This document shows, piece after piece, positions 1 through 59,570 of a DNA stretch of 64,000 bases. Under the pieces are notes generated by a model. That model saw only the letters and a list, made by a program, of their open reading frames with translations. It did not search any database and was not told where the DNA came from. Within the stretch, counting starts at the first letter, position 1; every line of letters starts with the position of its first letter. Origin of the DNA: Proteiniborus ethanoligenes (lineage in GTDB: Bacteria; Bacillota; Clostridia; Tissierellales; Proteiniboraceae); the NCBI RefSeq assembly GCF_900107485.1, contig NZ_FNQE01000004.1:1-64000 (forward strand). The letters are read 5' to 3'. The position numbers and the translations under genes were made by a program.

Positions 1-124
1 TGCTGAATACATGAAATCATATAATAAAATCAGAATTCATGGTTCCTTAGGATATATTCCTCCATCGGAATTCTATCAAAGAACCCTAGAAGGAACAGCA
101 AAGCCTTTAATAGTCAAACTTTAA
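1..124 (+). CDS. IS3-family transposase OrfB, C-terminal end (partial)
   Basis: Only the last 40 residues are in the window, in the frame starting at base 2 and stopping with TAA at 122-124. The peptide contains HGSLGYIPPSEFYQ, the hallmark C-terminus of IS3-family OrfB integrase-core (DDE, rve) transposases, in which strand transfer of the element is catalysed. The catalytic residues lie upstream of the window. The element continues to about 319, where a typical IS3 right terminus is visible, so it is probably a full copy entering from the left. Confidence 0.85.
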   Translation, partial: AEYMKSYNKIRIHGSLGYIPPSEFYQRTLEGTAKPLIVKL

Positions 125-254
125 TGTTTTTCGCTTAAGAGAAGCACACATAAATATTTAGCTGAAATCAAGGGCCTGCGGTAGCAGGGGCGTAGCCTTT
201 ACCCTTGATGAGGATAAATATTTATGTATAATAAAAAAAGCGAAAAAGCATTAA
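121..254 (+). other. Long multi-level hairpin in the IS3 3' non-coding tail
   Basis: Four nested or stacked pairings are visible: 121-136 with 238-254 (one bulge), 148-160 with 215-227 (13 bp perfect), 167-174 with 202-209 (8 bp perfect), and a small inner hairpin CTGC-GGTA-GCAG near 176-187. It begins on the transposase stop codon and lies inside the element. It could be a folded RNA 3' end, a terminator-like block to transcription, or a DNA structure. No named RNA family was recognised. Confidence 0.6.
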
Positions 255-289
255 AATATAAGGAACTAAGAAAAAGAAAGTATTCGTGA

Positions 290-319
290 GTTTTTGTCCA
301 ATATTAAGGGGTCAATCCG
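290..319 (+). mobile_element. Right terminus of the IS3-family element
   Basis: The string TTTTTGTCCAATATTAAGGG followed by GTCAATCC resembles the terminal inverted repeats of IS3/IS150-group elements. It ends exactly where the 11-bp repeat array begins at 320. The matching left end is outside the window, so the boundary is inferred. Confidence 0.6.
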
Positions 320-517
320 GTTTAACGATAGTTTAACGATAGTTTAACGATAGTTTAACGGTAGTGTAACGATTGTTTAACGATTGTTTAACGATTGTTT
401 AACTACTGTTTAACTACTGTTCAACTACTGTTCAACTACTGTTTAACTACTGTTCAACTACTGTTCAACTACTGTTCAACTACTGTTCAACTACTGTTCA
501 ACTACTGTTCAACTAAC
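320..517. repeat. 11-bp tandem repeat array 1 (18 units)
   Basis: Eighteen consecutive 11-bp units run without a gap. They change in order from GTTTAACGATA through GTTTAACGATT to GTTTAACTACT and GTTCAACTACT, ending in a GTTCAACTAAC unit. The period is close to one helical turn. It sits between the IS3 end and the terminator of the DUF2922 gene. Confidence 0.95.
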
Positions 518-602
518 AACTACCATTTTTCACCCTGAGACATGCAGTATAATCTTTGCTTGCAAAGGTCCTATCCCGAGGGATCTCACTTTCTCTTTAT
601 CT

Positions 603-633
603 AAACAGGGACAGCATAAATCTGTCCCTGTTT
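603..633 (-). terminator. Hairpin downstream of the DUF2922 gene
   Basis: An 11-bp perfect stem (AAACAGGGACA with TGTCCCTGTTT) lies just past the stop of the minus-strand DUF2922 gene. The T-run after it is weak, so it is a probable rather than certain terminator. Confidence 0.6.
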
Positions 634-638
634 GTTTA

Positions 639-860
639 CTATGCTAGCTCTAGTTCTTGAACTTCTGTGCTTATGATCTTAGCTGAAACTAGTTCAACTA
701 AACCTCCATCACCTGTGTCAAAGACATCCATGGCTACTATATTTTCCATTGCAGCTTTTACTTCTACATTTGTAACAGTATCTCTAGGATTGTCTAGGGT
801 AATTTTACTGTTTTTACTTGCTTGGTTTTTAAATGTCATTTCAAGTTTTCTTTTAATCAT
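639..860 (-). CDS. DUF2922 family protein
   Basis: A 73-residue acidic protein with the look of the DUF2922 family: an N-terminal K-x-L-x-M-x-F-K segment, a central run about a ring of Asn/Asp-Pro-Arg, and a GDGGLVELVSAKII segment. The function of the family is unknown. The ATG at 860 follows a good GAGGAGGTGAAAAC ribosome site. It lies 84 bases downstream of the DUF1659 gene on the same strand; these two families are habitually paired in Bacillota, so one transcript is likely. A hairpin follows at 603-633. Family assignment is from sequence resemblance only. Confidence 0.8.
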   Translation of the reverse strand: MIKRKLEMTFKNQASKNSKITLDNPRDTVTNVEVKAAMENIVAMDVFDTGDGGLVELVSAKIISTEVQELELA

Positions 861-944
861 GTTTTCACCTCCTCTTTTAGTTTTAGTCAGAGGACATAGT
901 TAGAGTTAAAGCTACATCCTCTGCTGGTTTAGACTATCTACATT

Positions 945-1169
945 TTAGGCTTGTGTAAGCTCTACTTCGTCTAGTCTCTTAACTGCTATAAGTGGCATAT
1001 CCTGTAGGTCTGCTAGGGATGTTGCAACTGAAAACAGATTGTCGTTTACTGCATCAATCTTTACCTTTGAGAAGGTTTTAGACTTCACTACTGGATCCCC
1101 TTTCCCATTAACTCCTCCATCAAACTGTAATTTAAGTTTTGAATCTTTTACTATTGTGTTTACTGGCAT
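945..1169 (-). CDS. DUF1659 family protein
   Basis: A 74-residue protein beginning MPVNTIVKDSKLKLQFDGG, a start typical of DUF1659. The function is unknown. The ATG at 1169 is preferred over an in-frame start at 1202 because AAAGGAGGTGAAAAT lies directly before it. It is the first gene of a two-gene unit with the DUF2922 gene. Both small genes are enclosed by the 11-bp repeat arrays at 320-517 and 1365-1452, which is unusual for this otherwise common pair. Confidence 0.8.
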   Translation of the reverse strand: MPVNTIVKDSKLKLQFDGGVNGKGDPVVKSKTFSKVKIDAVNDNLFSVATSLADLQDMPLIAVKRLDEVELTQA

Positions 1170-1364
1170 ATTTTCACCTCCTTTTCTTGGATTGGGTTGC
1201 ATAAGATATACTTTTGCCTAAACTACTATTTTTTGAGAAGCTTCTCTGTGTTCTACCGGTAACCTAATAATAATCTATTTAGATAAAAGAATTAAATCAG
1301 GAGTTAGAGTAGAGTCATGGAAAAGATAATTAAGAGTTAAGGATTAAGAATTTCAATAACAGTA
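1170..1364. promoter_or_regulatory. Leader/promoter region of the DUF1659-DUF2922 unit
   Basis: This AT-rich stretch lies upstream of the minus-strand DUF1659 start. It should hold its promoter, but I could not single out one convincing -35/-10 pair. No open frame worth calling is present. Confidence 0.35.
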
Positions 1365-1452
1365 GTGGAACGATTGTTAAACGATTGTTTAACGATTGTT
1401 CAACTACTGTTTAACTACTGTTTAACTACTGTTTAACTACTGTTTAACTAAC
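1365..1452. repeat. 11-bp tandem repeat array 2 (8 units)
   Basis: Eight units with the same period, orientation and order of variants as array 1: GATT-type units first, then TACT-type units, and the same terminal GTTTAACTAACAACTA junction. It ends 20 bases before the metK terminator. The shared order suggests array 1 and array 2 descend from one ancestor and then changed in copy number. Confidence 0.95.
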
Positions 1453-3034: not shown

Positions 3035-3505
3035 TCAAAAAATGACTGTTACTTGATGACTTAAAAATAAAACAATAATTCCAGATGTAATAACACCAGA
3101 AACAATAGCTAAAATTGCATACTTAAACCTTATATTAAATAGAGTAGCAGCTACACATCCTGTATATGCTCCCGTTGTTGGTAAAGGAATAGCCACAAGG
3201 ATATATAGTCCTAACACACTGTATTTCACTATGTTATTACTTTTTCTTAAGGTTCTTCTTTTAATCCACTTAATAAATTCGCCTACTATCCTTACATCCT
3301 CTAGTGCAGCAAATAAAGGTCTAAGTATAAGCAATAGAAAAGGTACAGGCAGGCAGTTTCCAATGATACTTATAATAGTACTATGTAAAGGGCTAAATCC
3401 TATGGATATACCTAATGGTATAGCTCCCCTCAGTTCAGATATGGGAGCTGCCGCAATCATCATTACTATAAATTCCTCTTTAATAAATTCTAATATTTCT
3501 CCCAT
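3035..3505 (-). CDS. Small multi-drug export family membrane protein
   Basis: A 156-residue integral membrane protein of the small multi-drug export family (COG2426 type). Signatures are the PISELRGAIPLGISIGFSP segment after the first membrane span, a basic central loop (KWIKRRTLRKSNN), and the VAIPLPTTGAYTG segment. About four or five hydrophobic spans are visible. Transport activity is not well established for the family. The start at 3505 has a weak GGGGGAAT ribosome site. A second member lies at 59079-59570, and a tail fragment of that copy at 54251-54326. Confidence 0.85.
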   Translation of the reverse strand: MGEILEFIKEEFIVMMIAAAPISELRGAIPLGISIGFSPLHSTIISIIGNCLPVPFLLLILRPLFAALEDVRIVGEFIKWIKRRTLRKSNNIVKYSVLGLYILVAIPLPTTGAYTGCVAATLFNIRFKYAILAIVSGVITSGIIVLFLSHQVTVIF

Positions 3506-24538: not shown

Positions 24539-25591
24539 TTATTGGGCAGTAACGTCAATTACTTCTATTGTTCCATCTATAATTCCCTTTTTAATTTCTT
24601 CTAGCTTATTAATTACTTCTTCTCCAATTATATCTTTTGTATATTTCATCTCCGAAAGTCCTACACCGTTATTTTCAAGACCAAATAGCTTCAATTCCCC
24701 TACAAAGCTTTTATCTACAACATCTTGTATAGATTCAAATACTGCTACATCTACTCTTTTCATCATCGAAGCAAGCACTAAGCCTTCTGCCATATAATCC
24801 TGATCTGAGTTAATTCCCAGTGCATACTTGTTTGCATCCTTTGCAGCTTCAAATAACCCAGTTCCAGAACCACCAGCTACAGGATAAATAATGTCTATTC
24901 CTTGTGAGTACATAGATGCTGCAATGTTTTTTGCTTTACCAGGATCATTAAATGCACTAAAATCTGACCCTATAGGTTGAACTATTACTTCGATATCCTT
25001 ATTAATATATTTTACTCCTTGCTCGTATGCATTAGTGAATCTATTTAAAAATGGTATATCCATAGCTGGTATACAACCCACTTTATTCGTTTCAGTCATC
25101 AAAGCAGTTAATGCACCTATTAAAAATGAACCTTCATGTTCTTTGAATGTTAATGATTGTACATTAGGTTGCTCTACTACTGCATCTACTATAGCAAATT
25201 TTGTGTCTGGGAATTCTTGTGAAACTATATTCATAGGCTCAGCCATATCAAAGCCTACTCCTATTACCATATCATTTCCCGCATTAGCTAAATCTCTTAA
25301 CAACCCTTCTGTTGAAGCTAAATCTATCGGCTCCACTACCTTAAGTTCTATATTCAATTCTTTTTCTGCCTGTTTTGCACCATCATAAGCAAGGTCATTA
25401 AAAGATTTATCTCCTAAGCCCGCTACTCCTGTAAGTAAACCTACTTTTACTTTTTCTCCTTCATCTGTACCGGAAACGTTTTCATTGTTTGCAATATTCT
25501 CATTGCTATTTACTTGATTATTATCTTTCCCGCAAGCTACTAATGTAAAAAGCATAATTAAAACTAATAGAAGCGATAAAAATTTTTTCAT
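24539..25591 (-). CDS. BMP-family nucleoside-binding lipoprotein
   Basis: A 350-residue lipoprotein with a lipobox LVAC (Cys20), exported and anchored outside the membrane. Mature features include GVAGLGDKSFNDLAYDGAKQ and VIGVGFDMAEPM, the signature of the Bmp/PnrA/NupN nucleoside-binding family. It captures the substrate for the importer encoded downstream. The ATG follows AAGGAGGAAATATT. A CAACA/TGTTG inverted repeat lies upstream at 25662-25679, between it and the regulator gene. Confidence 0.92.
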   Translation of the reverse strand: MKKFLSLLLVLIMLFTLVACGKDNNQVNSNENIANNENVSGTDEGEKVKVGLLTGVAGLGDKSFNDLAYDGAKQAEKELNIELKVVEPIDLASTEGLLRDLANAGNDMVIGVGFDMAEPMNIVSQEFPDTKFAIVDAVVEQPNVQSLTFKEHEGSFLIGALTALMTETNKVGCIPAMDIPFLNRFTNAYEQGVKYINKDIEVIVQPIGSDFSAFNDPGKAKNIAASMYSQGIDIIYPVAGGSGTGLFEAAKDANKYALGINSDQDYMAEGLVLASMMKRVDVAVFESIQDVVDKSFVGELKLFGLENNGVGLSEMKYTKDIIGEEVINKLEEIKKGIIDGTIEVIDVTAQ

Positions 25592-59078: not shown

Positions 59079-59570
59079 TTACCCATTAATCACACTAACA
59101 ACACCATTGCTCAAAGCCATGATCAAAACCCCAGCTATTAGATTTCCTACAAATATAGCAGGAAATGCCCATTTAAATCTCATATCAAGGAGAGCTGCTA
59201 TAAGACTACCACTCCATACGCCTGTCCCAGGCAAAGGGATGGCTACAAACACAAGGAGTCCCCATGCTCCATATTTTTGTATTTTACCACTCTTAGCCAT
59301 TGATCTATTGGTGAGCCTATTTACAATTTTCTCAAAGGTCTTGGTCTTCTTCAAATAATTAAATATAGGTCTAATAGTAAATAGTATAAAAGGTACAGGA
59401 ATCATACTTCCTATAAAGCTAAGAACAGTAGCATGAATAGGAGATAGCCCTAGTGATATACCTACTGGAATAGCTCCCCTTAGTTCTATAATAGGTAATG
59501 CCGCTGTTAGCATTACTGTAAATTCTATGGATAAGAAATTAAATATTTGACTTATGTATGAAGACATCAT
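59079..59570 (-). CDS. Small multi-drug export family membrane protein, second copy
   Basis: A 163-residue integral membrane protein of the same family as 3035-3505: LPIIELRGAIPVGISLGLSP, a basic loop (NRLTNRSMAKSGK) and VAIPLPGTGVWSG are visible with four or five spans. The reaction is unproven. GGGGGAATATGATG before the first Met is a modest ribosome site, and MM leaves the exact start uncertain by one codon. Its 3' end and upstream flank occur again, fused, at 54251-54417. Confidence 0.85.
   Translation of the reverse strand: MMSSYISQIFNFLSIEFTVMLTAALPIIELRGAIPVGISLGLSPIHATVLSFIGSMIPVPFILFTIRPIFNYLKKTKTFEKIVNRLTNRSMAKSGKIQKYGAWGLLVFVAIPLPGTGVWSGSLIAALLDMRFKWAFPAIFVGNLIAGVLIMALSNGVVSVING

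Follow-up and report, generated by a model that had tools for sequence, protein, structure and literature searches.

The window analysed here, a stretch of 64,000 nucleotides, comprises positions 1 to 64,000 of contig NZ_FNQE01000004.1 (C4 below) of Proteiniborus ethanoligenes. Close to its start lies a single run of genes on the reverse strand, in which metK, encoding S-adenosylmethionine synthetase (1531-2718; PF02773, PF02772 and PF00438), stands upstream of a DUF1659 gene (945-1169; PF07872, 1.9e-23) and a DUF2922 gene (639-860; PF11148, 1.3e-24). The DUF1659 frame opens with an ATG at 1169 that is served by a strong ribosome-binding site, a further in-frame ATG lying upstream at 1202. A SAM riboswitch is found upstream of metK on the same strand (2862-2969; Rfam RF00162, 89.6 bits). 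Elsewhere on the reverse strand of the window, 3035-3505 and 59079-59570 encode two small multidrug-export-like proteins, the first of which matches PF06695 and is resembled, by eye, by the second.

On either side of the DUF1659 and DUF2922 genes stands a tandem array of 11-bp units, both arrays being written on the forward strand. Array 1 contains 18 units at 320-517, in which seven left-type units (320-396) are followed by an arm of eleven right-type units (397-517). The left-type units are GTTTAACGATA three times, GTTTAACGGTA, GTGTAACGATT and GTTTAACGATT twice, in other words units of the GTTTAACGATA, GGTA and GATT kinds, while the right-type units are GTTYAACTACT ten times and then a final GTTCAACTAAC. 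Array 2 contains eight units at 1365-1452, preceded by a 21-bp leader, TTAAGAATTTCAATAACAGTA (1344-1364). Its left-type units are GTGGAACGATT, GTTAAACGATT and GTTTAACGATT (1365-1397), and its right-type units GTTCAACTACT, GTTTAACTACT three times and GTTTAACTAAC, which with the terminus ..GTTTAACTAACAACTAA occupy 1398-1458. Both arrays have the ending ..AACTAACAACTA, extended at the right terminus of array 1 as ..GTTCAACTAACAACTA (507-522), and the same or a similar terminus closes arrays on contigs C14, C36, C38 and C23. The leader of array 2 likewise recurs at the left end of several copies, being matched from the first position of the query on C4, C23 and C36 in a consensus search; its CAGTA, together with the first unit, pairs with right-type units. 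A two-core consensus has 22 matches in the window, all of them inside the two arrays, against a mean of 0.03 in shuffled sequence. The preliminary description of two co-oriented arrays of 18 and 8 units, with a common order of unit types and a common ending, is thereby borne out. The units are contiguous and have no spacers between them, as a CRISPR would have.

Array 1 is incomplete as it stands on C4, where it abuts the right end of an IS3-family element (1-319, forward strand). A frame running from 2 to 124 matches the C-terminus of the NCBIfam model transpos_IS3 (346-369 of 369) and, weakly, Pfam rve_2. The opposite end of the insertion is found at the end of contig C36 (24691-25070), where four further left-type units (24691-24731) are followed by the left end of an IS3-family element, containing a frame that resembles orfA (transpos_IS3 1-78; HTH_Tnp_1); GTTT flanks the element on both contigs. 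The earlier reading that an IS3 end cuts array 1 at 319/320 is accordingly sound, and gene order in congeners, together with the in-register fit of the two parts, suggests that C36 joins C4 at array 1. With the insertion sequence removed, the joined parts run in register as eleven left and eleven right units, such that the lopsided appearance of array 1 (7/11) is due to its having been split by the IS3 element. The ends of this IS3 copy are unrelated to the array family. This IS3 end occurs once more where contig C5 begins (L181:298-321), and is one likely reason for the assembly break there.

The preliminary description also took the arrays to enclose the DUF1659 and DUF2922 genes as a unit, and proposed searching the rest of the genome for the repeat. 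The genome, the single one of the species, is a draft assembly of 3.16 Mb in 69 contigs that breaks at repeats. It holds 97 exact matches to a two-unit pattern and 156 to a three-core pattern, with none for a reversed control; a 70-base consensus gives 110 matches, which resolve into about 33 elements. In other words, arrays 1 and 2 are two of some 33 copies of a dispersed element, with about 31 arrays besides, and are no device for these two genes. Indeed, the arrays stand beside many unrelated housekeeping genes, and the order metK-DUF1659-DUF2922 is found in congeners and represents an old neighbourhood across the order. Since metK has long been adjoined by DUF1659 and DUF2922 across the order, the arrays are not carriers of either gene, and the DUF2922 gene is, as far as gene order tells, an ancestral neighbour and not their cargo. 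In this regard, it was further suggested that recombination between the arrays would delete both genes, and the two arrays do share one orientation in the window. However, the longest identical run between them is 26 bp, which is below the length expected for efficient homologous recombination, both genes are kept beside metK in both congeners, and arrays also surround many unrelated genes. It is accordingly very improbable that the paired direct arrays serve to delete or amplify DUF1659 and DUF2922.

The dispersed copies are neither evenly spread nor placed at random with respect to genes. Contigs C36, C4, C38 and C5 carry 24 of the 33 arrays (binomial P about 6e-19 for at least 24 of 33) and, on joins inferred from synteny with two congeners, amount to a single stretch of 274,532 bases, or 8.7% of the genome. 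The gene order across these four contigs points to one joined segment, which would run comF-recD2-YvrJ, the IS3 element, DUF2922-DUF1659-metK, the ATP synthase operon, upp-prfA-rho and fsa-fba-pyrG; for the rho-fsa and wecA-atp joins, the guide is the gene order of other Firmicutes. A neighbourhood of the origin or of parS was considered as the cause of the clustering and set aside, there being no parS-like site, DnaA-box cluster or skew switch in the segment. By the gene calls of a simple script, all 24 arrays of the segment lie between co-directional genes, a figure that is weak by itself because 87% of gene pairs are co-directional in any case, and none lies inside a gene. Many copies start immediately downstream of a stop codon, or themselves provide that codon, and extend up to a Shine-Dalgarno site, often within tens of bases of both; adjoining genes include atpG/atpD, fba/fsa, rpmE, metG and flgK/flgL. 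The random scatter of low-complexity sequence that had been held up against the arrays is thus not what is seen, the copies being dispersed yet ordered, intergenic and regionally clustered. Nor do they behave as microsatellites, given their fixed left-right order, their matched arms and the relics at orthologous gaps described below. Some arrays pass at their right end into repeats of a heptamer, AACTAAC/AACTAAG (L042:2840-2875, L044:14240-14290).

With unit classes set by linker, left-type units (..GATA/GATT) precede right-type units (..TACT) in 29 of 32 arrays, the exceptions being two arrays of mixed order and one without a right-type unit. Aligned core to core, GTTTAACGATA of the left arm is close to the reverse complement of GTTTAACTACT of the right arm, and GATA against TACT gives two Watson-Crick pairs, one G-U pair and one A.C mismatch; at the outer end on the left, the conserved CAGTAGTGGAAC pairs with GTTCAACTACTG apart from a single mismatch. 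From this imperfect complementarity of the two types it follows that the whole array can form a single long hairpin in which a repeat of 11 bp recurs. Predicted folds are correspondingly stable: array 2 has a z of -5.7 when folded as RNA and of -5.6 when folded as DNA, array 1, rejoined across the IS, forms one hairpin at -81.5 kcal/mol (z -7.5), and the longest array (C38:17455-17815) gives -140 kcal/mol (z -14). Among 31 elements, 25 fold at z below -2, with a median of -5.1. The predicted fold becomes poorer when the units of an arm are shuffled among themselves (combined z -5.5), part of which may come from the likeness of neighbouring units, and permuting unit order over whole arrays is significant mainly for long symmetric arrays.

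An 11-bp period had initially suggested arrays of protein sites, one to each helical turn. Such arrays might serve to organise the chromosome or to control the genes beside them, and the clustering of the copies in one region would suit such a role. The same period equally suits a hairpin, however, 11 bp being also one turn of A-form RNA. Moreover, protein sites do not predict a complementary order of two unit types or matched arms, the unit core and linker differ in congeners, and the segment offers neither of the origin-associated motifs sought in it. The complementarity, the matched arms and the fold scores favour a hairpin, and binding-site arrays appear improbable.

If the hairpin is the relevant structure, then it could act at the level of the transcript, being selected between cistrons as an RNase III site, an mRNA stabiliser or a regulator of translational coupling. 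Within operons, for example atpG-atpD, flgK-flgL and fba-fsa, copies do have a stop codon on one side and a Shine-Dalgarno site on the other, and 23 of 31 elements share one direction relative to transcription (p=0.011). Against this, the transcribed strand is the more stable in 14 elements and the less stable in 17 (p=0.74), such that selection on an RNA hairpin is left without support. In the central four units, covariation does not rise above shuffles (0.095 against 0.097), where doubly changed pairs number 6 against 3.8 expected (21 of 500 shuffles). Nor is any gene function common to the array sites, and in congeners the element is decayed or absent at these gaps. No family of Rfam 15 matches the arrays at gathering score, the two in the window yielding a chance-level microRNA match alone; near arrays, the Rfam matches are the SAM riboswitch and a T-box, and nothing else. 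Selection for such a transcript element is hence rather unlikely, if less so than protein binding.

A further property of the hairpins is that their two arms are matched in length. Over 32 arrays, with units counted by linker type, the lengths of left and right arms correlate (Spearman 0.57); permuting the right arms among the arrays places the matching at p=2.5e-5, and uniform random splits of the same totals were never as even as observed in 20,000 trials. The largest arrays reach 16+17 units. Lopsided arrays also occur, at C5:63310 (20/6), C4:100097 (17/6) and C5:70775 (8/1). Minisatellites are expected to lengthen by direct-repeat slippage, in which the parts of an array are independent of each other. 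It is conceivable, though doubtful, that the hairpin is self-expanding, with 11-bp units being actively gained or lost by the two arms in concert, one helical turn per step, which would keep the arms matched at dozens of independent sites; an enzyme of the host, or one encoded by an element, could possibly drive this by acting on the hairpin. If it were true, minisatellite growth would here be coordinated between the arms, for which, to our knowledge, there is no described mechanism.

The age of the family can be gauged from its relatives. The three-core pattern has no exact match in two congeners (G001 and G002), but a sequence model built on the four central units (R1) matches the P. ethanoligenes genome at 161 places, G001 at 31 and G002 at 6, these congener counts being favoured by construction because the training set took in five congener relic sequences. 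A matrix made from the P. ethanoligenes arrays alone had, however, found congener relics before R1. In 26 other genomes of the order, R1 gives between none and two weak matches each, at E 0.0016 or worse. Several relics lie in orthologous gaps, namely atpG-atpD and DUF2922-YvrJ (the gap of array 1) in G002, and rho-rpmE, prmC-prfA, the atpC side and recD2 in G001. It follows that some of today's arrays arose by growth at positions where the element already stood when the species diverged. At other places in the two congeners, copies are better preserved and take the form of short palindromes, three to five units long, some of them near-perfect (C56:3714 in G001, z -8.5; 932871 in G002, z -6.5). 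Other gaps have a short spacer and no element in a congener: fba and fsa are about 10 bp apart in G002, whereas the P. ethanoligenes gap contains an element of 251 bp. The family thus appears, within the genomes sampled, to be genus-wide and expanded in P. ethanoligenes, with short and decayed copies in two congeners and none that is convincing in the 26 others, and the homogeneous unit types of P. ethanoligenes would point to recent expansion, exchange or re-insertion. The orthologous gaps in the congeners (L147-L174) often hold another palindromic repeat, GAGATTCTTCGCT..GCTCAGAATGACA, and two congener 11-bp hairpins are nested within repeats of this kind.

A more conventional explanation is that the arrays are ordinary MITEs, moved by an IS transposase and containing a minisatellite prone to slippage, such that the hairpin and the matched arms are by-products. 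The copies are intergenic, non-coding, multicopy, A+T-rich and below 400 bp, well within the 500 bp of a MITE, and gaps free of the element occur in congeners. Inverted outer ends, AACAGTAG at the left and CTACTGTT at the right, are complementary in several copies, and the combination of transposon and minisatellite has a precedent in the BrickBuilt elements (PMC4596501). On the other hand, left ends vary, other copies having no leader and several beginning directly in units, the inverted repeat is the array itself, and matched arms are unexpected where slippage is independent. By eye, no target duplication is seen at the compared element-free gaps, although a short one could have gone unseen there, so far have the flanks diverged. 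With the target duplication and a parent IS unproven, the arrays are not filed here as MITEs, and this origin is a possibility held to be less than even, though ahead of the other alternatives.

The explanation that probably holds is that the arrays belong to a family of short elements, confined to the genus, which encode nothing, form hairpins and occupy co-directional gene gaps, and the units of which have been multiplied in P. ethanoligenes. It accords with their dispersal, intergenic siting, unit order and complementary, matched arms, as with the relics in orthologous gaps and the absence of the family elsewhere in the sampled order. The ancestral form would have been a palindrome of some 35-60 bp, of three to five 11-bp units, as is extant in the two congeners, and in P. 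ethanoligenes the units would have been multiplied into a left arm of the GTTTAACGATA type and a right arm of the GTTYAACTACT type. Slippage could duplicate units within one arm, and the hairpin, formed on single-stranded DNA at the replication fork, could then remove or resolve units about its centre and so even the arms. Copies that harmed a stop codon or Shine-Dalgarno site would be eliminated by selection, and their loss would leave the survivors squeezed between the two. Any effect on the cell is likely to be indirect, through a long hairpin in polycistronic mRNA or as a site of processing or recombination, and nothing points to a dedicated function. No mobilising enzyme came to light, and open-licence papers yielded no description of the unit or of 11-bp intergenic arrays.

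Matched halves across dozens of arrays offer a testable case for hairpin-steered repeat growth in bacteria, in which the short ancestral forms of sister species allow comparison with the expanded arrays. Arrays in operons such as that for ATP synthase are, moreover, natural insertions for studying how inter-cistron hairpins are tolerated, and the arrays are candidate loci for strain typing.

Among known systems, the REP/BIME/REPIN palindromes, which are mobilised by REP-associated tyrosine transposases, resemble the arrays as short multicopy palindromes with extragenic positions inside operons, but the arrays are 11-bp tandem repeats, and we know of no relation in sequence between the two. A REP/RAYT system was rejected, Y1_Tnp (PF01797) being absent from the P. 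ethanoligenes genome and present in control genomes. The mycobacterial MIRU-VNTR loci are length-variable tandem repeats that likewise occupy gene gaps in operons, but their direct repeat units are much longer than 11 bp. In a scan of a collection of genome contigs, Geomonas alone was matched. The Geomonas diazotrophica array (L194:5209-5314) has 12 units, GTTCAACGACC and then GTTCAACTACC, with the same change from G to T at the start of the linker as in the P. ethanoligenes arrays, but it has one core and no hairpin arms, its fold (z -1.3) does not stand out from chance, and it was matched at one place in its genome. A scan of a viral collection matched 75 contigs (L052-L126), nearly all with 11-nt repeats of the GTTCAACGACC type, often followed by repeats of the AAAGTAAAG type; these were set aside for their different, apparently coding setting. 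One phage contig, IMGVR_UViG_3300035312_000584 (L066:500-593), carries a pure array of seven GTTTAACTACT units between phage genes, directly upstream of a Shine-Dalgarno site, for which a role as vehicle or an independent origin is possible.

The multicopy intergenic sequences of Geobacter, with direct repeats of 6-42 nt and palindromes, are clustered with one another (PMC2996986, PMC2700814) and resemble the arrays as families of repeats and palindromes that fill intergenic regions. The closest known kind is the MITEs that contain a minisatellite, as in the BrickBuilt elements of Porphyromonas gingivalis (PMC4596501), with which the arrays have this design in common. The BrickBuilt unit is 23 nt, against 11 nt here, and those elements lie 49-591 nt from genes (PMC4596501), whereas the arrays are often within tens of bases of a stop codon and a Shine-Dalgarno site. 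In the parts of the BrickBuilt description compared here, no two complementary unit classes are reported (PMC4596501), whereas the arrays have two, in matched arms. Finally, BrickBuilt is interpreted as a MITE with small inverted-repeat ends (PMC4596501), whereas in P. ethanoligenes the whole array is the inverted repeat.
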